Made by a program: the position numbers and the translations under genes | Notes under the pieces: generated by a model | What the model was told of the DNA's origin: nothing | Databases searched by the model: none | The model's input: only the letters and a program-made list of their open reading frames with translations | In this document: positions 4,549 through 58,346 of the stretch, piece by piece | Position numbering within the stretch: position 1 is the first letter of the stretch | Layout: every line of letters begins with the position of its first letter | DNA from: Alphaproteobacteria bacterium | Lineage (GTDB): Bacteria; Pseudomonadota; Alphaproteobacteria; Ferrovibrionales; Ferrovibrionaceae | DNA length: 64,000 nt | Assembly: GCA_017307375.1 (NCBI GenBank) | Contig: JAFKFH010000004.1 | Span: 620,001-684,000, forward strand | Direction of reading: 5' to 3'

Positions 4549-6957
4549 GTGGCAGGCGGCCTGACGGCCAGGCATTTCCTCGATACCGCCGTGGCGGCGT
4601 TGGCGGTGGCTCTCGGCCTCACGCTGCTGCTGGCCTGGCTCGACCTGCGCGAGTTTCGCCAGGACTTGGCTGCGAGCATCGGGACAGTCTTTGCGACGAT
4701 CACCCAACCCGCCGCCAAGGCGGTCTACGAGATCGATGGGCGGGCCTTGGGCGTCGTCCTCGACGGCGCGCTGGGCGAGCGACTGATCGACCAGGTTGCG
4801 GTCCGCGATGAAGCCGGCGCGCTGGTCGACCGGCGCGGCCGGGTGCAGGATCCCGATGGCGACCTGCCGCGCTGGCTTGCCGATACCCTGCTCGGCGCGG
4901 GTCTTCAGGCGATGTCCCGCCCCCTGGTTCAGGAGCGGCCGCAAGGCCCGCTGGTGGTCGGCACGCTGGAACTGGCGATCGATCGCGGCTACGCGACCGG
5001 CCGGTTCCTGGCGCGCTTCGGCCGTTCGGTCGTCGCCGTGTTCGTCCAGTCGCTGGTACTCGGCGCAATCATGGCGGCGGTGGCACAGGCAACACTCGGC
5101 CGTCCGATCCGGCGGCTGAGCGAAGCCCTGCTGGACCTGCAGCCCGAGGCGCTGGGCCTGCGCCACCGCCTGCCTGGCCGCCGCCGTGACGACGAACTCG
5201 GTGCCATGGTCCGCCGGATCGAATCCCTGCTCGACCGGATCGTCGCCGCCAGGATGGTGCGTGAGCAGGCCGAGGTCGAGCTGCGCGAAAGCGAGGCGCG
5301 ATTTCGCGATCTTGCCGAAGGATCCCTGCAGGGCATGGTAGTCCATCGCGATTTTCGGCCGCTGTTCGTCAACGACGCCCATGCCCGTGCCCTCGGCTAC
5401 GGTGATGCCGCGACCTTCTTGGCGCAAGAGCCGGACCTGCTGGACCTGATTCCCGCCGACATCCGCGAGGCGGTGGTCGAACGCTATCGCGACATCATCG
5501 CCGGTCGCGCCGTGCCCGTCGCCCATCGGATCGCCAACCGCAACCGCCATGGCGCGATCCGTCATTTTCTGGTGCTTGATCGTGCGATCGACTGGGGCGG
5601 CGAGCCCGCGCTTCAGGTCTCGCTCATCGACATTTCGCGCGAAGTGCAGGTCGAGGCCGAACTCAGTCGGCTGGCGACGCGCGACGGGCTCACCGGCCTG
5701 GCCAATCGCGCGCTGATCCATGAAACGCTCGCGACAGCGGTTGCGCAGGCCGCCGCCTTCAACCGCCGACTTTGGGTCGTGACCATCGATATCGACCGGT
5801 TCAAGGACATCAATGACAGTTTCGGCCATCCTGGCGGCGACAGCCTGTTGCGCAAGATTGCCCGTCGGCTGGAAGCCCGGTTGCGGCCGGGCATGACGCT
5901 CGGCCGCCTCGGTGCGGACGAATTCGTCGTGCTGGCGGCCGATCTTGCCTGGGACGGGTCGGAAACCGCCTGGCTGCAGGAGTTGGCCCAGGCATTCTCA
6001 CGCCCGTTCACGTTGGCCGGCCAGGAGGTTTTCGTCCGGGGCGCCTTCGGCATCGCGGCCTATCCCGAGAACGGCACGGCGGTGGACGACCTGCTGCGCG
6101 GGGCCCATACCGCCGCCAATGCGGCCAAGCGACAGGGGGCGGGCTTCGTCTTCTACGATGCGGCGATGAACCTGCGCGCCCGCAATCGCCTGCGGCTCGA
6201 GCGCGACCTGCGGCGCGAGATCGACCAGGACGGGTTCACCGTCCACTACCAGCCGCAGCAGGACATTTCGACGGGCGAAATCACTGGGTTCGAGGCGTTG
6301 CTGCGCTGGAAGGGCGCCGATGGGGTGGCGATACCGCCGGACCAGTTCATTCCGGTCGCGGAGGAGACGGGAATGATCGTGGCGCTCGGGGAACTCGTGC
6401 TGGAACGGGTCTGCCGGCGCGCGGCGGCCTGGCGGCAGCAATATCGCCGCCAACCCTCGGTCGCGGTCAACGTCTCGCCACTGCAGCTTCTCGACCCGGG
6501 ATTCGCCGACCGGGTCGTGGAACGGCTGGCGCGCCACGGTCTTCCCGCCACCGCCATCGAGATCGAGATAACCGAAACGGCGACGATCGCGCATATCGAG
6601 CAGGTACTGCCGGCGCTGCGGCAATTGCGCGATGCCGGCATCGCCCTGGCGATCGACGATTTCGGCACCGGCTACTCGTCGCTCAGCTACCTGAAGCGCC
6701 TGCCCCTGTCCTGCCTCAAGCTCGACAAATCCTTTGTCCGCGACCTGCCCGACGCCGAGGCGATGACGATCGCGCGCGCGATCGTCGTGCTGGGCCATCA
6801 GTTGGGCTTGAGCGTCACGGCGGAAGGCGTCGAGACCGAGGCTCAGCGCCGATTGCTTGTCGAACTGGGCTACGACCGGCTGCAGGGCTATCTCATCGGG
6901 CGTCCCACCCCGGACAGCGAACTGGTCCGCTTCCTCGATCCGCCGACGGCCGCCTGA
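4549..6957 (+). CDS. Membrane sensor with PAS, GGDEF and EAL domains (c-di-GMP turnover)
   Basis: 802 residues, GTG start after GGGGAG. Layout: membrane segment 10-28, periplasmic region to about 160, second membrane segment 162-183, HAMP-like linker, PAS about 243-365, GGDEF about 375-530, EAL about 545-795. The EAL domain looks active: FEALLRW (Glu582), NVSPLQL, DDFGTGYSSLSYLKRLP, KLDKSFV and EGVE are present. The cyclase motif reads GADEF (455-459) instead of GGDEF. The likely net role is c-di-GMP hydrolysis, with the GGDEF domain either weakly active or a GTP-binding regulator. Confidence 0.9.
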   Translation: MAGGLTARHFLDTAVAALAVALGLTLLLAWLDLREFRQDLAASIGTVFATITQPAAKAVYEIDGRALGVVLDGALGERLIDQVAVRDEAGALVDRRGRVQDPDGDLPRWLADTLLGAGLQAMSRPLVQERPQGPLVVGTLELAIDRGYATGRFLARFGRSVVAVFVQSLVLGAIMAAVAQATLGRPIRRLSEALLDLQPEALGLRHRLPGRRRDDELGAMVRRIESLLDRIVAARMVREQAEVELRESEARFRDLAEGSLQGMVVHRDFRPLFVNDAHARALGYGDAATFLAQEPDLLDLIPADIREAVVERYRDIIAGRAVPVAHRIANRNRHGAIRHFLVLDRAIDWGGEPALQVSLIDISREVQVEAELSRLATRDGLTGLANRALIHETLATAVAQAAAFNRRLWVVTIDIDRFKDINDSFGHPGGDSLLRKIARRLEARLRPGMTLGRLGADEFVVLAADLAWDGSETAWLQELAQAFSRPFTLAGQEVFVRGAFGIAAYPENGTAVDDLLRGAHTAANAAKRQGAGFVFYDAAMNLRARNRLRLERDLRREIDQDGFTVHYQPQQDISTGEITGFEALLRWKGADGVAIPPDQFIPVAEETGMIVALGELVLERVCRRAAAWRQQYRRQPSVAVNVSPLQLLDPGFADRVVERLARHGLPATAIEIEITETATIAHIEQVLPALRQLRDAGIALAIDDFGTGYSSLSYLKRLPLSCLKLDKSFVRDLPDAEAMTIARAIVVLGHQLGLSVTAEGVETEAQRRLLVELGYDRLQGYLIGRPTPDSELVRFLDPPTAA

Positions 6958-51998: not shown

Positions 51999-52274
51999 TT
52001 ATGTTTCGATCTTGAACTGCTGTAGCAGCTTCATGACAGGGGTGTCGTAGTCCGGCGGCACCGGGTCGCGGCCGATCGCCCAGGCATAGATCAGCGGGTC
52101 TTCCTGGGTATCGAGCAAGTGTTCGTATTGATCGAGCTCGTCGGGTCCGAACCCCGGCAGGTGGGCGCGGGCGAAGGCGCCGAGCAACAGGTCGGTCTCC
52201 TTCATACCCGTGTAGAGCGAGCGATAGATCAGCCGCTTGCGGCGCGCTTCCAGCAAATCGTTCGTGTCGGTCAT
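51999..52274 (-). CDS. sdhE: FAD assembly factor SdhE (DUF339)
   Basis: 91 residues. The SdhE fold is recognised from RKRLIYRSLYTGMKETDLLLGAF and DPLIYAWAIGRDPVP. It helps attach FAD to succinate dehydrogenase. The conserved RGxxE motif reads TGMKE here, with Thr22 where Arg is usual. The longer in-frame ORF to 52463 is rejected because a promoter -10 box lies 7 nt before the ATG at 52274. sdhE-mfd is a common alphaproteobacterial pair. Confidence 0.9.
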   Translation of the reverse strand: MTDTNDLLEARRKRLIYRSLYTGMKETDLLLGAFARAHLPGFGPDELDQYEHLLDTQEDPLIYAWAIGRDPVPPDYDTPVMKLLQQFKIET

Positions 52275-52281
52275 GCGGGGA

Positions 52282-52310
52282 GATATAGACCGCCGCCCCC
52301 GCGATGTCAC
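52282..52310 (-). promoter_or_regulatory. Predicted leaderless promoter of sdhE-mfd
   Basis: On the minus strand GTGACA (52305-52310), a 17-bp spacer and TATATC (52282-52287) precede the ATG at 52274 by exactly 7 nt, with no Shine-Dalgarno sequence. Confidence 0.5.
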
Positions 52311-52353
52311 CACCAGGGAGAACATATCATGGCCCTCCCGGCAAAACCGGCCA

Positions 52354-52382
52354 TTGGCGCCGGCGGCGCGGCCCCGTATAAG
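52354..52382 (+). promoter_or_regulatory. Predicted leaderless promoter of recG
   Basis: TTGGCG (52354-52359), a 17-bp spacer and TATAAG (52377-52382) precede the ATG at 52390 by exactly 7 nt. It mirrors the divergent sdhE promoter. Confidence 0.5.
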
Positions 52383-52389
52383 TCCGCGG

Positions 52390-54489
52390 ATGCGTCCGGA
52401 GTTGCTCAACCCCGCCTTTACCGCGATCGATGTGCTCAAGGGCTGCGGCCCGCGCATCGCCAAGCTGCTCGAAAAGCTCTTGCGCGGCGGGCGGTTGCTC
52501 GACCTGTGGTGGCACCTGCCGAGTGGGCTGATTGACCGGCGCTACGCCCCGCCGGTTGCGGAGATCGAGCCTGGCCGGATCGCGACGCTGACGGTGACCA
52601 TCGAGGACTATCGCCCCGGGCAGAGCGCGCGTCACCCGTTCAAGGTGGTCGCCTCCGACGAGACCGGCTCGATCGACCTGATCTTCTTCAAGCCGCATGA
52701 AGATTGGCTCAAGACCGCCCTGCCGATCGGCGAGACGCGAATCGTCTCGGGCGCGGTCGAATGGTTCAACGGCCGGCCGCAGATGAGCCACCCGGACCGG
52801 ATCGGCGGGCTGGACGAGCGCGCCGCGATCGAGACGGTCGAGCCGGTCTACCCGCTGACCGCAGGGCTGACCAACCGCCCGCTGACCAAGCTGGTATGGC
52901 AGGCGCTGCTGCGGTTGCCGCCGCTGCCCGAATGGCTCGATCCAGCCCTGATGGAACGCGAGAAATGGCCGGGCTGGGCCGCCGCCCTGCGTGCCGCCCA
53001 CGCGCCGAAGGATGCCGCCGACCTTGACCCCAACGCCCCTGCCCGCGCCCGGCTGGCCTATGACGAACTGCTGGCCAACCAGCTCGCCCTGATCCTGGTC
53101 CGGGCCCAGACCCGGCGCCAGGCCGGTCGGGCGATGGTCGGCGACGGGCGGATCACGGCACGGCTGGCGGCGAACCTGCCCTACCGGCTGACCGGGGCGC
53201 AGACCCAGGCGCTGGCCGAGATCGCCGCCGATCTGGCTTCCGACACCCGCATGTCGCGGCTGCTGCAGGGCGATGTCGGTTCCGGCAAGACCGCGGTCGC
53301 GCTGTTCGCCCTGGCCATTGCGGCCGAGGCCGGCGCGCAGGGCGCCCTGATGGTGCCGACCGAAATCCTGGCCCGCCAGCATTACGACAGCCTGTCGCGG
53401 CTGGCCGAGAACACGGGCCTGCGCGTCGCCCTGCTGACCGGCCGCGACAAGGGGCGGGCGCGGGCCGACCTGCTGGCCCGGCTCGAAGCCGGCGAGATCG
53501 ACCTGCTGGTCGGCACCCATGCCCTGTTCCAGGACGACGTGGTGTTTCGCGACCTCGGCCTGGTCGTGATCGACGAGCAGCACCGCTTCGGCGTGCACCA
53601 GCGTGTCAAGCTGGCGGCGAAGGGCCAGCGCGATCAGGGCGGGATCGATCTGCTGGCGATGACGGCGACGCCGATCCCGCGCACCCTGGCGCTGACCGCC
53701 TATGGCGACATGGACGTCTCGAAGCTGACCGAGAAGCCGCCGGGGCGGCAGCCGGTCGATACCCGCTCGGTCGCCCTGGACCGGCTGGACGAGGTCGTTG
53801 CCGCCGTGGGCCGCAAGCTGGCGGCCGGCGACCAGGTCTACTGGGTCTGCCCGCTGGTCGAGGAAAGCGAGGTGGTCGACCTGGCCGCCGCCGAGGAGCG
53901 CTTCGCCCATCTGCGCGAAGCCCTGCCCGGCCACGCGATCGGCCTGGTGCACGGCAAGCAGAAGGCGGCGGAAAAAGACGCGGCGATGGCCGATTTTGCC
54001 GCCGGCCGCACCCGGCTGCTGGTCGCGACCACGGTGATCGAGGTGGGCGTCGACGTGCCGACCGCCACGCTGATGATCATCGAGCATGCCGAACGCTTCG
54101 GTCTGGCCCAGCTGCACCAGTTGCGCGGCCGGGTCGGCCGCGGCGGGCTGAAGGGCAGTTGCCTGCTGCTTTATGCTTCCAATATCGGTAAGGTGGCCCA
54201 GGCGCGCCTGAAGATCATGCGCGAGACCGAGGACGGCTTCCGGATCGCCGAGGAAGACCTGGACCTGCGCGGCGCCGGCGAACTGCTCGGGGCCAAGCAG
54301 AGCGGCGTGCCGGAATTTCGCGTCGCCGACCTTGATGCCCATCGCCGCCTGCTTGAAATCGCGCGCGACGATGCCCGGCTGATCGCCGAGACCGACCCGC
54401 GGCTGGAAACTGAGCGCGGCCAGGCCCTGCGGGTGCTGCTGTATCTGTTCGAGCGCGACCAGGGCGTCCGCCTGTTGCGCAACGGCTGA
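52390..54489 (+). CDS. recG: ATP-dependent DNA helicase RecG
   Basis: 699 residues, close to the usual length. N-terminal wedge domain (OB fold), then helicase motifs: LLQGDVGSGKTAVAL (Walker A), VVIDEQHRFGV (DEQH), MTATPIPRTLALT and the C-terminal QLHQLRGRVGRGG. It rewinds and reverses stalled replication forks. The ORF extends upstream to 52237, but the family N-terminus begins at 52390. Confidence 0.96.
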   Translation: MRPELLNPAFTAIDVLKGCGPRIAKLLEKLLRGGRLLDLWWHLPSGLIDRRYAPPVAEIEPGRIATLTVTIEDYRPGQSARHPFKVVASDETGSIDLIFFKPHEDWLKTALPIGETRIVSGAVEWFNGRPQMSHPDRIGGLDERAAIETVEPVYPLTAGLTNRPLTKLVWQALLRLPPLPEWLDPALMEREKWPGWAAALRAAHAPKDAADLDPNAPARARLAYDELLANQLALILVRAQTRRQAGRAMVGDGRITARLAANLPYRLTGAQTQALAEIAADLASDTRMSRLLQGDVGSGKTAVALFALAIAAEAGAQGALMVPTEILARQHYDSLSRLAENTGLRVALLTGRDKGRARADLLARLEAGEIDLLVGTHALFQDDVVFRDLGLVVIDEQHRFGVHQRVKLAAKGQRDQGGIDLLAMTATPIPRTLALTAYGDMDVSKLTEKPPGRQPVDTRSVALDRLDEVVAAVGRKLAAGDQVYWVCPLVEESEVVDLAAAEERFAHLREALPGHAIGLVHGKQKAAEKDAAMADFAAGRTRLLVATTVIEVGVDVPTATLMIIEHAERFGLAQLHQLRGRVGRGGLKGSCLLLYASNIGKVAQARLKIMRETEDGFRIAEEDLDLRGAGELLGAKQSGVPEFRVADLDAHRRLLEIARDDARLIAETDPRLETERGQALRVLLYLFERDQGVRLLRNG

Positions 54490-54503
54490 GTGAGGCTTCC
54501 ACG

Positions 54504-56069
54504 ATGCGTCGCCTGCTGATCACCGCGGCCCTGGCGCTGGGCCTGCTGCCCACCCTCGCCCGGGCCCAGACCGACAATCGGACGCTGGGGGGCGACGATA
54601 TCCCGCCTACACGCTGGCCGATCGTGGCAGCGCTGCTGCACGGCGGCGCGCCCGGTTGCGGTGCCGTGCTGATCGCGGAAAGCTGGGTGGTTACCGCCGC
54701 CCACTGCGTCTACCGGAACGGTGCGGCGCTCGAGCCTGCCGTATTGTCGGTCCGTTTCGGTACCGAGCTGCCCGACAGCGCTGCCGGCGAGGTGGTCGAC
54801 GTTGCCGAGGTCGTCGTCCACAAGGATTTCGCGGCGCCGACTCCGCCGCCGAATAATTTCAGCTATTTCGTCAACGACATTGCCCTGCTGCGCCTCGGCC
54901 GCCCGGTCGCGCTCGCCCCGGCTCAGCTGTTAGGCACGACACGCGCGGCCGCGCTGGCCGCCGTCGGCAAACCGGCGACCGCGATCGGCTGGGGCACGCT
55001 TGCCGAGGCATCGGCCCCGACCGGGACGACGATCCTGAAGCAGGTCGCGATGACGGTCGCAGCCAGCGGCGTCTGCGCGACGACGATCGCGCCGCGGCCC
55101 TACCTGGCAGGGATGCTGTGCGCCGAGCCGCAATCGGCGACTCCGGCCGCCGCCGATGCCACCTGTGGCGGCGACGCCGGTGGGCCCCTGTTGCTGCCGA
55201 ACGGCCGTGGCGGCTTCGTGCTGGCCGGCATCCTGTCGGGCCTGCGCGTCGACTGCACCGAGCCCGGGCCAGCGATCGCGACCGCCATGCCCGACTATCT
55301 CGACTGGATCGTTGCCCGCGTGCCGACCCTGATCGTCGACGGCAACGTCGTCGAGAGCGGCTTCTGGGGCATCGACGGCGCGGCGGCGGCCGGGGTTGCC
55401 ATCGAGATCCAAGGCAGCCGTTTGATTCTCGGCCTGATGCTTTACGACGCGGCGGGCAGCCCGACCTGGTACTTTGCCAGCGGCGCGTTCAGCGGACTCG
55501 GAACCTTCACCGCACCGCTGCAGGAATTTGCCGATGGCAGCGACATGCTTTACGGCGCGGGTCTCGGGACGTACCAGACCCTTGCCTCGCCAGGTACGGT
55601 CACCCTGACCTTTCAGGCCGCCGATCGCGCGCGGTTGACGGTCGCCGGTCGCGACTGGACGATCCGCCGCAGCGACCAGATTGCCGGACGACCGGCCCCC
55701 GACGCCGGCTTGCCCGAGACCGGCTGGTACCGGAGCCGACGTGATCCCGGTCGCTTCTGGTTCGTCGAAGCCCAGGGCGCCCGCATGATGGTGGCGGATT
55801 TCGCCTACGGCACGGCCCGCGTCGACGACCATTACCCCGCACGCTGGACGATCGCCGCGGGCACCGCGGCCAAGGTCGGCACCGCCGCCGTGATGAGCGC
55901 ACCGATATATGGCTGCGTCGGCGGGCCGGGACTGAAGACCACGGGCGGCACCGCCAGCTGCGGCGATACCGACTTTGCATTGTCGCTGATGTATCCCGGC
56001 GTCTTCACCGGCTGGCTAATACCCGACGGTTCGCGTGCGGTCGCTGTCGGCCGCTACGTCGCGCCATAG
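54504..56069 (+). CDS. Secreted trypsin-fold protein with Ser-to-Ala active site (pseudoprotease) and C-terminal beta domains
   Basis: 521 residues; signal peptide ends at ARA (residue 21). The first 275 residues are a chymotrypsin-type S1 domain with His67 (VVTAAHC) and Asp125 (NDIALLRL). The nucleophile motif GDSGGP reads GDAGGP, with Ala225 coded by GCC at 55176-55178. Paired cysteines remain. The C-terminal half contains the ESGFWG...QGSRLILGLMLYDAAGSPTWYF pattern of exported beta-rich repeat domains, with a weaker second copy. It is probably a non-catalytic binding protein. Confidence 0.85.
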   Translation: MRRLLITAALALGLLPTLARAQTDNRTLGGDDIPPTRWPIVAALLHGGAPGCGAVLIAESWVVTAAHCVYRNGAALEPAVLSVRFGTELPDSAAGEVVDVAEVVVHKDFAAPTPPPNNFSYFVNDIALLRLGRPVALAPAQLLGTTRAAALAAVGKPATAIGWGTLAEASAPTGTTILKQVAMTVAASGVCATTIAPRPYLAGMLCAEPQSATPAAADATCGGDAGGPLLLPNGRGGFVLAGILSGLRVDCTEPGPAIATAMPDYLDWIVARVPTLIVDGNVVESGFWGIDGAAAAGVAIEIQGSRLILGLMLYDAAGSPTWYFASGAFSGLGTFTAPLQEFADGSDMLYGAGLGTYQTLASPGTVTLTFQAADRARLTVAGRDWTIRRSDQIAGRPAPDAGLPETGWYRSRRDPGRFWFVEAQGARMMVADFAYGTARVDDHYPARWTIAAGTAAKVGTAAVMSAPIYGCVGGPGLKTTGGTASCGDTDFALSLMYPGVFTGWLIPDGSRAVAVGRYVAP

Positions 56070-56073
56070 GTTT

Positions 56074-57972
56074 TCAGAAGTCGATCTGGATCCCCAGCTC
56101 GATCGAGCGCGAGGCCGGCGCCCCGACATATTCGGCGACCGGCCGCCCGCGGCTGTGCAGCCAGCGGAACGGCCGGCGATACCAGCGCCAGCCCCGTTCC
56201 GGCGCGGCGCGCAGACCTTCCCGGCCGAAGATGTAGACGAGGTCGCCGGCATCACGCCACAACGCGTAGGGGCCGGCGGCCTCGACCAGTGCCTTCAGGT
56301 CGGGGGTCTCCATGAAGCCGTGGCGGGCGATCAGCTGGTGGATGCCGCGGCCCTTGGGCAGCAGTGTCAGCCGCTCGGCCTCGGGGACCCGCGGCCGGTC
56401 GTCGGTGACCAGGCTGAGGATGATCGTCGGCATGTACAGCGAATCGGTCAGCTGCATCTGCTTGAGCAGCGCCGGCGGCACCATCTCGGGCAACGGCAGA
56501 TGGCTGACATAAAGCGCCGGCTTGTCGATCCGGTGCAGGTCGGCGCGTTCGCCGACGCTGTCCGCGAACAGCCCGATCGGCATGTCCAGCCGCTCGGCCC
56601 GGTCGTTCAATTCGCGGCTGCCGGCGCGCCAGGCCGCCATCAGCCACCCCAGCCCGATCGCGATGCACAACGGCACCCAGCCACCGACATGGATCTTCGG
56701 TAACGTCGACAGGAAGAAGGCACCGTCGAAGACGCCGAGGAACCCGACCAGCGCCAGCGCCCCGGCCGGATGCCAGTTCCACACCCGGGTGAGGACGAAG
56801 AAGAAGGCGACCGTCGTGATCACCATCGTCGCCGCCACCGCGAAGCCGTAGGCGGCGGCCAGCCGGCTGGACGACCCAAAGCCGATGACCATCATGACGC
56901 AGGCGATCATCAGCAGCCAGTTGACCGTCGGCAGGTAGACCTGGCCCTGCGCCTTGTCGGACGTCTGCACGATCCTGAGCGGCGGCAGGTAGCCGAGCTG
57001 GATCGCCTGGCGGGTCAGCGAGAATGCGCCGGAGACCAAGGCCTGCGACGCGATGATCGTGGCGAGGGTCGCCAGCACGACCATCGGCAGGACGAAGCCA
57101 GGCGGGACCAGCGCGTAGAACGGGCTGATCCCGGGCAGGGGGCCATCGAGCAGCAGGGCACCCTGGCCGAAATAGTTCAGCACCAGCCCGCCCAGCGCCA
57201 CACCGTACCAGGCCAGCCGGATCGGCCCGCGCCCGAAATGGCCCATGTCGGCGTAGAGCGCCTCGCCGCCGGTCACGGCCAGCAGGACCGAACCGAGCAG
57301 CAGGAAGGTCCGCCAGCCCAGTTCATCGATCACGGCGATGCCGTAGAGCGGATTCACCGCGGCCAGGATTTCGGGCGCCTGGATGATGCCGCGCAGGCCC
57401 AGCCCGGCCAGCACGACGAACCACAGCAGCATGACCGGCCCGAAGATGGCGCCGATCCGGGCGGTGCCGAAGCGCTGCATGACGAAGAACGCGACGAGGA
57501 TCAGGCAGGTCAGCGGCACCACGGCCTCGCCGGCCTCCGGCATCGCGACCTCGAGCCCTTCGATCGCGGATATCACCGACAATGCCGGGGTGATCGCCCC
57601 GTCGGCGTAGAGCAGCGCGGCCGCTGCGGCGACCATCAGGCCGAGGGCGAAGTTCTCCCGCCGCCCCAGCGCGCGCGCCCGGGCGCGCAGCAGCCCCAGC
57701 ATGGCGAAGATGCCCCCTTCGCCCTGGTTGTCCGCCCGCATGATGAACACAAGGTATTTGAGGCTGACGACCAGCATCAGCGACCAGAAGACCAGCGAGA
57801 CCACGCCGAGAACATTGCCGCGGCTGACGGTGAGGCCGTGCACGGAATGGAAACATTCGGCCAGGGTGTAGAGTGGACTGGTGCCGATATCGCCGAACAC
57901 GACGCCCAGCGCGCCGAGCGCCAGCAAGGCCGTGCGCCGGGGGCCGCCCTGCCCCGGCTTCGTCATACTCAT
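56074..57972 (-). CDS. kup: Low-affinity potassium transporter Kup
   Basis: 632 residues: about 12 membrane helices then a cytosolic C-terminal domain. Family start LGALGVVFGDIGTSPLYTL, then GEGGIFAMLGLLR, LYADGAITPALSVISAIEGLEV and GGEALYADMGHFGRGPI. It imports K+ with protons. The ATG at 57972 (or 57966) precedes the first family residues; an upstream ORF extension to 58062 overlaps the next gene and is rejected. Confidence 0.93.
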   Translation of the reverse strand: MSMTKPGQGGPRRTALLALGALGVVFGDIGTSPLYTLAECFHSVHGLTVSRGNVLGVVSLVFWSLMLVVSLKYLVFIMRADNQGEGGIFAMLGLLRARARALGRRENFALGLMVAAAAALLYADGAITPALSVISAIEGLEVAMPEAGEAVVPLTCLILVAFFVMQRFGTARIGAIFGPVMLLWFVVLAGLGLRGIIQAPEILAAVNPLYGIAVIDELGWRTFLLLGSVLLAVTGGEALYADMGHFGRGPIRLAWYGVALGGLVLNYFGQGALLLDGPLPGISPFYALVPPGFVLPMVVLATLATIIASQALVSGAFSLTRQAIQLGYLPPLRIVQTSDKAQGQVYLPTVNWLLMIACVMMVIGFGSSSRLAAAYGFAVAATMVITTVAFFFVLTRVWNWHPAGALALVGFLGVFDGAFFLSTLPKIHVGGWVPLCIAIGLGWLMAAWRAGSRELNDRAERLDMPIGLFADSVGERADLHRIDKPALYVSHLPLPEMVPPALLKQMQLTDSLYMPTIILSLVTDDRPRVPEAERLTLLPKGRGIHQLIARHGFMETPDLKALVEAAGPYALWRDAGDLVYIFGREGLRAAPERGWRWYRRPFRWLHSRGRPVAEYVGAPASRSIELGIQIDF

Positions 57973-58016
57973 TCCCGCGATCCCCCACCAGCCATGCGGG
58001 GCGCAGTGTGGCGCAA

Positions 58017-58049
58017 GCCGGACACGACGCCAAGGGCGCCGTGTCCGGC
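58017..58049 (-). terminator. Strong hairpin between the small secreted protein gene and kup
   Basis: GCCGGACAC (58017-58025) and GTGTCCGGC (58041-58049) pair perfectly, and the stem continues inward with one mismatch to a 3-nt loop. Only two T residues follow on the minus strand, so it may be a terminator or a kup leader structure. Confidence 0.5.
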
Positions 58050-58058
58050 CTGGCCGGA

Positions 58059-58346
58059 TCAACCCTTGACGGCGGTGTCGAGCTGCTTCAGCGCGCTATC
58101 GACCTGATCGGCGGTGCAGCCCGAGCCGTTGGCGACGCGGCCGCGCAGCGCGCGGCGCTTGACGCTGCTGCCCAGCACGTCGCGGATCGCGGCGTCGTTC
58201 ATGCCATCGGCCTTCATCTTGTCGTGCAGTGTGGCCGACAGGGTCGAGGCGTCGCACTTGCCCTGGGCAAGGGCTTCGCTGGCGAAGGTCAGGGCGATGG
58301 CGGCGGCGGCAAGAAGGCCCGCGGCGATCAGGACGGGACGGCGCAT
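58059..58346 (-). CDS. Small secreted protein of unknown function
   Basis: 95 residues with a clear signal peptide ending at EALA (about residue 27), leaving a basic mature domain of about 68 residues with two Cys (GKCDAS and GSGCTAD) that could form one disulfide. AAGGA precedes the ATG. No family recognised. It is followed by a strong hairpin, so it is probably a single-gene unit. Confidence 0.7.
   Translation of the reverse strand: MRRPVLIAAGLLAAAAIALTFASEALAQGKCDASTLSATLHDKMKADGMNDAAIRDVLGSSVKRRALRGRVANGSGCTADQVDSALKQLDTAVKG

Follow-up and report, generated by a model that had tools for sequence, protein, structure and literature searches.

A trypsin-fold protein with alanine at the nucleophile position and a paired beta-barrel tail: a putative exported pseudoprotease

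The stretch of DNA that was analysed here (the window, 64,000 nucleotides) contains a gene for a protein of the trypsin family, P0001, in which alanine stands in the place of the catalytic serine. P0001 is most likely a serine protease homologue (SPH) of the PF00089 family, a kind of protein already known among bacteria from MamO. The explanation that we prefer, and to which we give slightly more than an even chance, is that it is an exported pseudoprotease that arose by duplication and probably serves as a non-catalytic binder. This explanation draws on the alanine at residue 195 (chymotrypsin numbering), which is unique among five paralogs, on the concentration of the losses at functional positions, on the intact reading frame, on the mid-range codon usage, on the tail that is shared with the paralogs and on the precedent of MamO.

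More specifically, the ancestor of P0001 would have been a secreted trypsin with a paired beta-barrel tail, one of a family that has four other full-length members in the genome. After duplication, P0001 would have lost its nucleophile and the residue normally used for activation, but neither its fold and disulfides nor His57 and Asp102. The trypsin scaffold, positioned by the barrel tail, could then bind proteins or peptides without cutting them. Its ligands might for example be the molecules that the active paralogs cut or are inhibited by, and towards those proteases P0001 would act as a competitor, a decoy or a partner. As judged from the residues present, P0001 should be unable to cut by the serine-protease mechanism; it is probably exported, a binding role is plausible, and the gene would have been retained by selection.

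Gene, product and active site

The gene opens with ATG and has no internal stop across its 521 codons; the stop codon is included in the coordinates given in Table 1. It begins 14 bases past the stop of a recG-like gene. It lies between this recG-like gene and a convergent kup-like gene (window positions 52237-58062), both named by the look of their sequences. A scan of positions 52000-56300 revealed no promoter-like site, which we count against the preferred explanation, and a terminator scan gave nothing convincing.

The trypsin assignment is not a matter of chance, since the Pfam match (residues 29-269) reaches 118.6 bits where the cut-off is 20.6. The only other Pfam match, Trypsin_2, lies under its cut-off, and the C-terminal half has no match at all. 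The AlphaFold model, for which a 42-row alignment served as input, has a mean pLDDT of 83.0, and its trypsin domain superposes on the solved trypsin 8vis_H with a Z score of 32.0 and an rmsd of 1.8 over 226 aligned residues. The many structure alignments that pair residues 27-275 with 16-244 fix the chymotrypsin numbering that is used here. The chymotrypsin double-barrel fold is predicted to be intact. The short propeptide ends in Arg at the position where trypsin zymogens are cut, and cleavage probably takes place there.

Table 1. Features of the P0001 gene and its product (window positions)
Feature	Position	Strand	Basis
Trypsin-fold pseudoprotease ORF (putative), 521 aa	54504..56069	+	PF00089, E 4.6e-34; no internal stops
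Signal peptide, residues 1-21 (MRR, a hydrophobic core and ARA)	54504..54566	+	read by eye
Short propeptide QTDNR, residues 22-26	54567..54581	+	alignment with 4 paralogs
Trypsin domain, residues 27-275 (chymotrypsin 16-244)	54582..55328	+	Pfam; AlphaFold model against 8vis_H
C-terminal beta barrel 1, residues about 274-390	55323..55673	+	predicted model
C-terminal beta barrel 2, residues about 395-519	55686..56060	+	predicted model
Thr27 = residue 16 (activation end)	54582..54584	+	trypsin-segment alignment
His67 = catalytic His57, CAC, kept	54702..54704	+	direct read and alignment
Asp125 = catalytic Asp102, GAC, kept	54876..54878	+	direct read and alignment
Ala219 = residue 189	55158..55160	+	paralog and relatives alignments
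Ala225 = residue 195, GCC, replacing the nucleophile Ser	55176..55178	+	direct read and alignments
Ala259 = residue 228	55278..55280	+	relatives alignment

Positions 55170-55187 read GGC GAC GCC GGT GGG CCC, which encodes GDAGGP. The first-pass annotation had claimed that the catalytic serine of a trypsin fold is replaced by alanine and that the catalytic His, the Asp and the cysteines are kept, and all of this is borne out. The six cysteines of the trypsin domain (52, 68, 191, 206, 221 and 251) align with the three chymotrypsin disulfide pairs 42-58, 168-182 and 191-220. Gly193 (= Gly223), Asp194 and Ser214 are kept as well.

Within the S1 family, losing Ser195 amounts to losing the nucleophile, and a threonine at residue 16 puts normal zymogen activation in doubt. 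P0001 has an incomplete His57-Asp102-Ser195 triad, and the Ile or Val that forms the new N-terminus of an active enzyme is absent, so that Thr16 may well block activation. A family fold (as predicted) combined with a replaced catalytic residue is what characterizes serine protease homologues, or pseudoproteases. Alternatively, P0001 could be a working hydrolase that employs the kept His57-Asp102 pair in another mechanism, perhaps on non-peptide substrates. The retention of both residues together with Gly193, Asp194 and Ser214 would agree with this; however, a replacement nucleophile is not evident at the site, and the kept His and Asp also fit a retained fold or ancestry, which makes such an enzyme very unlikely in our estimate. 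To our knowledge, there is no S1 enzyme that uses His57 and Asp102 with a different mechanism.

Paralogs and relatives

The source genome (7.54 Mb in 41 contigs) encodes four other full-length members of the same architecture (L002-L005). Like P0001, each of them combines a signal peptide (seen by eye) with a trypsin domain and a paired barrel. Their mutual identity is 37-63%, versus 31-34% to P0001. All four carry GDSGGP, Asp189, Ile16, Gly216 and Tyr228 and, by their sequences, look active, whereas P0001 alone of the five has Ala195. The positions that are invariant in the four paralogs and changed in P0001 include 189, where Asp has given way to Ala, as well as 16, 192, 195, 215, 216 and 226-228. 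A search of the genome with PF00089 returned 10 places, the five proteins included; the others are by eye three HtrA-like proteins and a further trypsin-like one with GNSGG, and a protein that carries GSSGSG. Serine is kept at all nine places other than P0001 (by eye for the distant ones). Two of the active-looking trypsin-barrel paralogs, L003 and L004, lie in tandem on contig 12 (303021-306141; locus L104) and are 63% identical.

Further relatives came from a scan of GTDB r220 that was seeded with six short P0001 peptides. It yielded 411 relatives, the best 80 loci of which were kept, and no full-length match to P0001 was present among these best 80 of 411. The trypsin-segment alignment comprises 100 rows; the 99 other rows derive from 85 loci and are mutually related, and the sampling relied partly on the His57 motif, which favours a kept His in the sample. 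Of the 98 other rows in which position 195 is occupied, 97 have Ser, the exception being a Gly in a row that is itself degenerate. An A and an L at this position in alignment A1 (40 other rows) were discarded as misplaced letters, since the rows concerned (L006 and L008) represent only C-terminal parts and lack the trypsin domain. At residue 16 we found 85 Ile, 8 Val, 1 Leu and no Thr in the 94 of the 99 other rows with a residue there, and residue 228 is Tyr in 91 of 98 and Ala in one. The change at residue 189 alone means little: Asp is present in only 60 of 98 other rows and varied residues in the rest, nearly all of them with Ser195, although Ala is found in P0001 alone. Changes at 215 and 216 are likewise seen in relatives with an intact Ser195. 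At most, the changes at 189 and 215-216 would point to an altered specificity.

The annotation had also remarked that the alanine codon GCC is one base from TCC. This is true, but the distance is no guide to the age of the change, because other functional residues are altered as well. The single-base distance and the occurrence in one genome only would suit an error in the sequencing, or a single mutation of very recent date in an otherwise active trypsin. We consider this the least probable of the explanations weighed here, in view of the accompanying changes relative to the four paralogs and of a Thr16 that none of the 94 rows shares. By comparison of the sequences, Ala195 is not an isolated odd codon.

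The distribution of the losses was counted over 16 positions named as functional, 10 of which are at least 80% conserved, and over 34 other columns conserved to that degree; four of the 100 rows were left out (two pieces of L089, one fragment of L066 and the degenerate L081 copy). P0001 lost 3 of the 10 functional columns (16, 195 and 228) versus 2 of the 34 others, a contrast that with such small numbers is not significant alone (Fisher p 0.07) and that we count against the preferred explanation to this extent. Two other rows also lost three functional columns, through N-terminal gaps. At least two of the 34 non-functional columns were lost in 56 of 95 other rows, and thus the loss in P0001 outside the functional sites proceeded at an ordinary rate. 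The pseudoprotease half of the earlier proposal of an 'exported pseudoprotease' is well supported by the three losses and the fold that is predicted to be intact; its other half, export, is probable from the signal peptide seen by eye and the look of the relatives.

In a tree built on the first 62 of 97 rows, the end branch of P0001 is the longest (2.84 changes per column versus a median of 0.45), as is expected after a change in constraint. The tree does not group P0001 with its four paralogs, which counts against the duplication that we propose, but the test does not reject a clade that unites all five (p-AU 0.43), and common descent is favoured because the barrel tail is shared. One relative deserves mention in its own right. 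A cluster of three trypsin-like copies in a Pseudolabrys MAG (L081) includes one, the third (segment at 4759), in which His57 and Asp102 are retained but CFRFGG stands where GDSGG is expected; next to copies that have Ser, it is another candidate for a bacterial pseudoprotease of the trypsin type.

Distribution and constraint

Orthologues of P0001 were sought in overlapping sets of genomes, with at most three candidates per genome being scored in the searches of the class and the phylum. None was found in 60 other genomes or in 397 other genomes of the phylum (both at E <= 1e-40), and the order, with 17 further genomes, gave none at 1e-30 either. A single one of 384 other genomes of the class (G289) gave a match at 1e-30, and this has Ser and a frame broken by one TGA. 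That locus (L089, G289 contig 20) represents the same trypsin-barrel architecture with Ser195 in another genus, and the TGA between its two halves is a frameshift, a stop or an assembly error. Fifteen recG loci of the family (L131-L145) had no match to P0001 at E <= 1e-4 within the flank, which covered about 1.5 kb downstream (short in L134, none in L145). As far as the searched genomes go, the gene thus appears private to its lineage. The lack of an orthologue and the restriction to one genome count against the preferred explanation.

The motif itself is rare as well. Of 398 genomes of the phylum, 12 contain CxGDAGGP, with 13 DNA sites between them, and P0001 is the only in-frame trypsin among these sites. 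The other 12 were rejected, their reading frames lacking the His and Asp motifs; one of these has a 73-aa frame with a loose GHC string and no further mark of a trypsin. The Ser-like pattern occurs at 88 sites in 58 of the 398 genomes, with 79 Ser codons by hand count and 5 Cys, 3 Thr and 1 stop in the remaining nine; the 79 CxGDSGGP sites are pattern matches and not each a confirmed trypsin. Both patterns require Cys191 and Gly193, and trypsins without these are missed. Bacterial trypsins without a nucleophile are rare: a survey of 91 prokaryotic genomes reports 2 SPHs among 247 trypsin-like proteins (PMC2605481), and here we have one CxGDAGGP trypsin versus 79 Ser sites. Among the papers listed by the literature searches we found no account of a natural secreted bacterial trypsin with a Ser-to-Ala change, which by itself does not prove that there is none.

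The main rival explanation is decay, in which P0001 is a redundant copy of five that lost its active site and is drifting, without function, towards a pseudogene. We hold this to be a serious possibility, although a less probable one than retention as a binder. Redundant, active-looking paralogs are present and the branch is very long. Moreover, none of the genomes searched contains an orthologue that would attest retention, the recG loci of the family that were looked at hold no relative of the gene, and the GGRGY motif of the barrels (see below) is gone from P0001. In addition, with recG, mfd and kup as codon reference, P0001 has the lowest score of eight genes (0.547, the others 0.658-0.831), which fits weak expression or relaxed constraint; both the score and the lost motif are counted against the preferred explanation too. 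However, the frame has stayed open. In a crude neutral simulation that started from the paralog L003 and allowed substitutions only, no more than 10 of 200 runs were free of stops at 80% amino-acid identity, and 1 of 200 at 60%. The ordinary retention of the non-functional conserved columns likewise speaks against drift, as does codon usage, which is unremarkable among 43 window ORFs that were picked mechanically (13th lowest of the 43 in codon adaptation, rank 21 of 43 for GC3). The GC content by codon position is 0.69, 0.59 and 0.84. Thus the stop-free frame as compared with the simulation, the ordinary column retention and the non-extreme codon usage argue that constraint on P0001 lasted through most of its divergence, with room left for a recent relaxation.

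Known systems and the barrel tail

The closest precedent, for a binding role as well as for the promotion of a partner, is MamO of the magnetotactic Alphaproteobacteria. This bacterial trypsin-fold pseudoprotease binds metal and promotes the activity of a partner protease (PMC4794232); it has lost catalysis, as P0001 presumably has, and shares its cell with an active protease, as P0001 does with active-looking ones. MamO is HtrA-like, however, with Thr at the nucleophile position, a residue other than glycine at 193 and a TauE transporter domain (same source), whereas P0001 is a PF00089 trypsin with Ala195, Gly193, the cysteines for three disulfides (by alignment) and a barrel tail. Judged by the kept Gly193 and the absence of a TauE domain in Pfam, P0001 is not a MamO. 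The SPHs of the 2008 survey resemble P0001 in belonging to a serine-protease family with catalytic residues missing or replaced; the paired-barrel architecture is not named for them in the available part of that survey (PMC2605481).

VesB of Vibrio cholerae (4lk4) is a secreted bacterial trypsin with a C-terminal beta domain (PMC12369372) and in this resembles P0001, for which export is probable. It differs in its natural Ser and in having one Ig-fold domain and GlyGly-CTERM, where P0001 has two predicted barrels. Its Ig-fold carries secretion information, and when its Ser is changed to Ala by engineering, VesB loses catalysis but is secreted all the same (PMC12369372), so that an inactive site need not stop export. 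The GDAGGP in the 4lk4 chain is presumably this engineered change. By eye, P0001 has no GlyGly-CTERM tail (a glycine motif, a hydrophobic helix and a basic end), and in its model the strands run close to the C-terminus.

The C-terminal repeat-like beta domains that the annotation had described are recovered in residues 274-521 as two repeats, predicted to form two small beta barrels (mean pLDDT 90.8). The tail was compared with lipocalin-like and other known barrel families, and its best structural matches are the designed barrels 6czj and 8ah9 (Z 10.1), followed by 1jju (9.0) and 1ei5 (8.9). The nitrophorins (7.8) and factor H binding protein match more weakly (Z 7-8), and their likeness may be a mere common arrangement. 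A Foldseek search with the barrel pair had no hit at E <= 1e-3, and the matches at E 5e-3 to 0.2 were set aside as mostly misfits by rmsd. Among the sequences of solved structures there was no match at E below 0.1, and neither Pfam nor NCBIfam matched the tail. An Ntox6 match of the paralog L002 (E 0.029, 14.3 bits) was rejected as far below the cut-off of 25.

A profile of the barrel pair, based on 13 rows (12 from the source genome), detected 42 stretches in that genome at E <= 0.001, 12 of them by construction; 21 of the 42 cover at least 230 of the 240 positions. In the class the pair is sporadic (5 of 289 genomes at E <= 1e-10, the source genome included). Besides the trypsins, its carriers include M23 and M12 (reprolysin-like) peptidases, the GSSGSG trypsin-like protein, and dioxygenase-like and cellulase-like proteins. 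The pair might serve secretion, anchoring or ligand binding.

A wider, and in our estimation improbable, proposal is that the genome maintains a dead trypsin next to four active sisters that bear the same tail, and that this trypsin permanently competes with them or assists them, put in place by the paired barrels as a new sorting or attachment domain. P0001 would then meet the substrates or inhibitors of its sisters at the same place, and the domain would also label other proteins of the cell (M23, M12, dioxygenase-like and cellulase-like). Such an arrangement would be the counterpart, in an extracellular digestive set, of the pairing of active and inactive proteases in magnetotactic bacteria. 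Since one genome encodes both the putative dead copy and four active-looking paralogs that share its architecture, competition and partnership are directly testable.

The barrel pair recurs as an accessory domain that no Pfam or NCBIfam family covers, and with its 42 matched stretches it may matter more than the putative dead trypsin that carries it. Many proteins of the source genome that are unrelated to one another and apparently secreted have it at their C-terminus. The pair is present at window positions 55323-56060 and in L002-L008 and L100-L102, among others. Its typical signature is GWWW...GGRGY...E...W, and the copies scanned had no Pfam or NCBIfam match over the cut-off. Most copies other than P0001 carry GGRGY in one or both repeats, and P0001 has lost it from both barrels.
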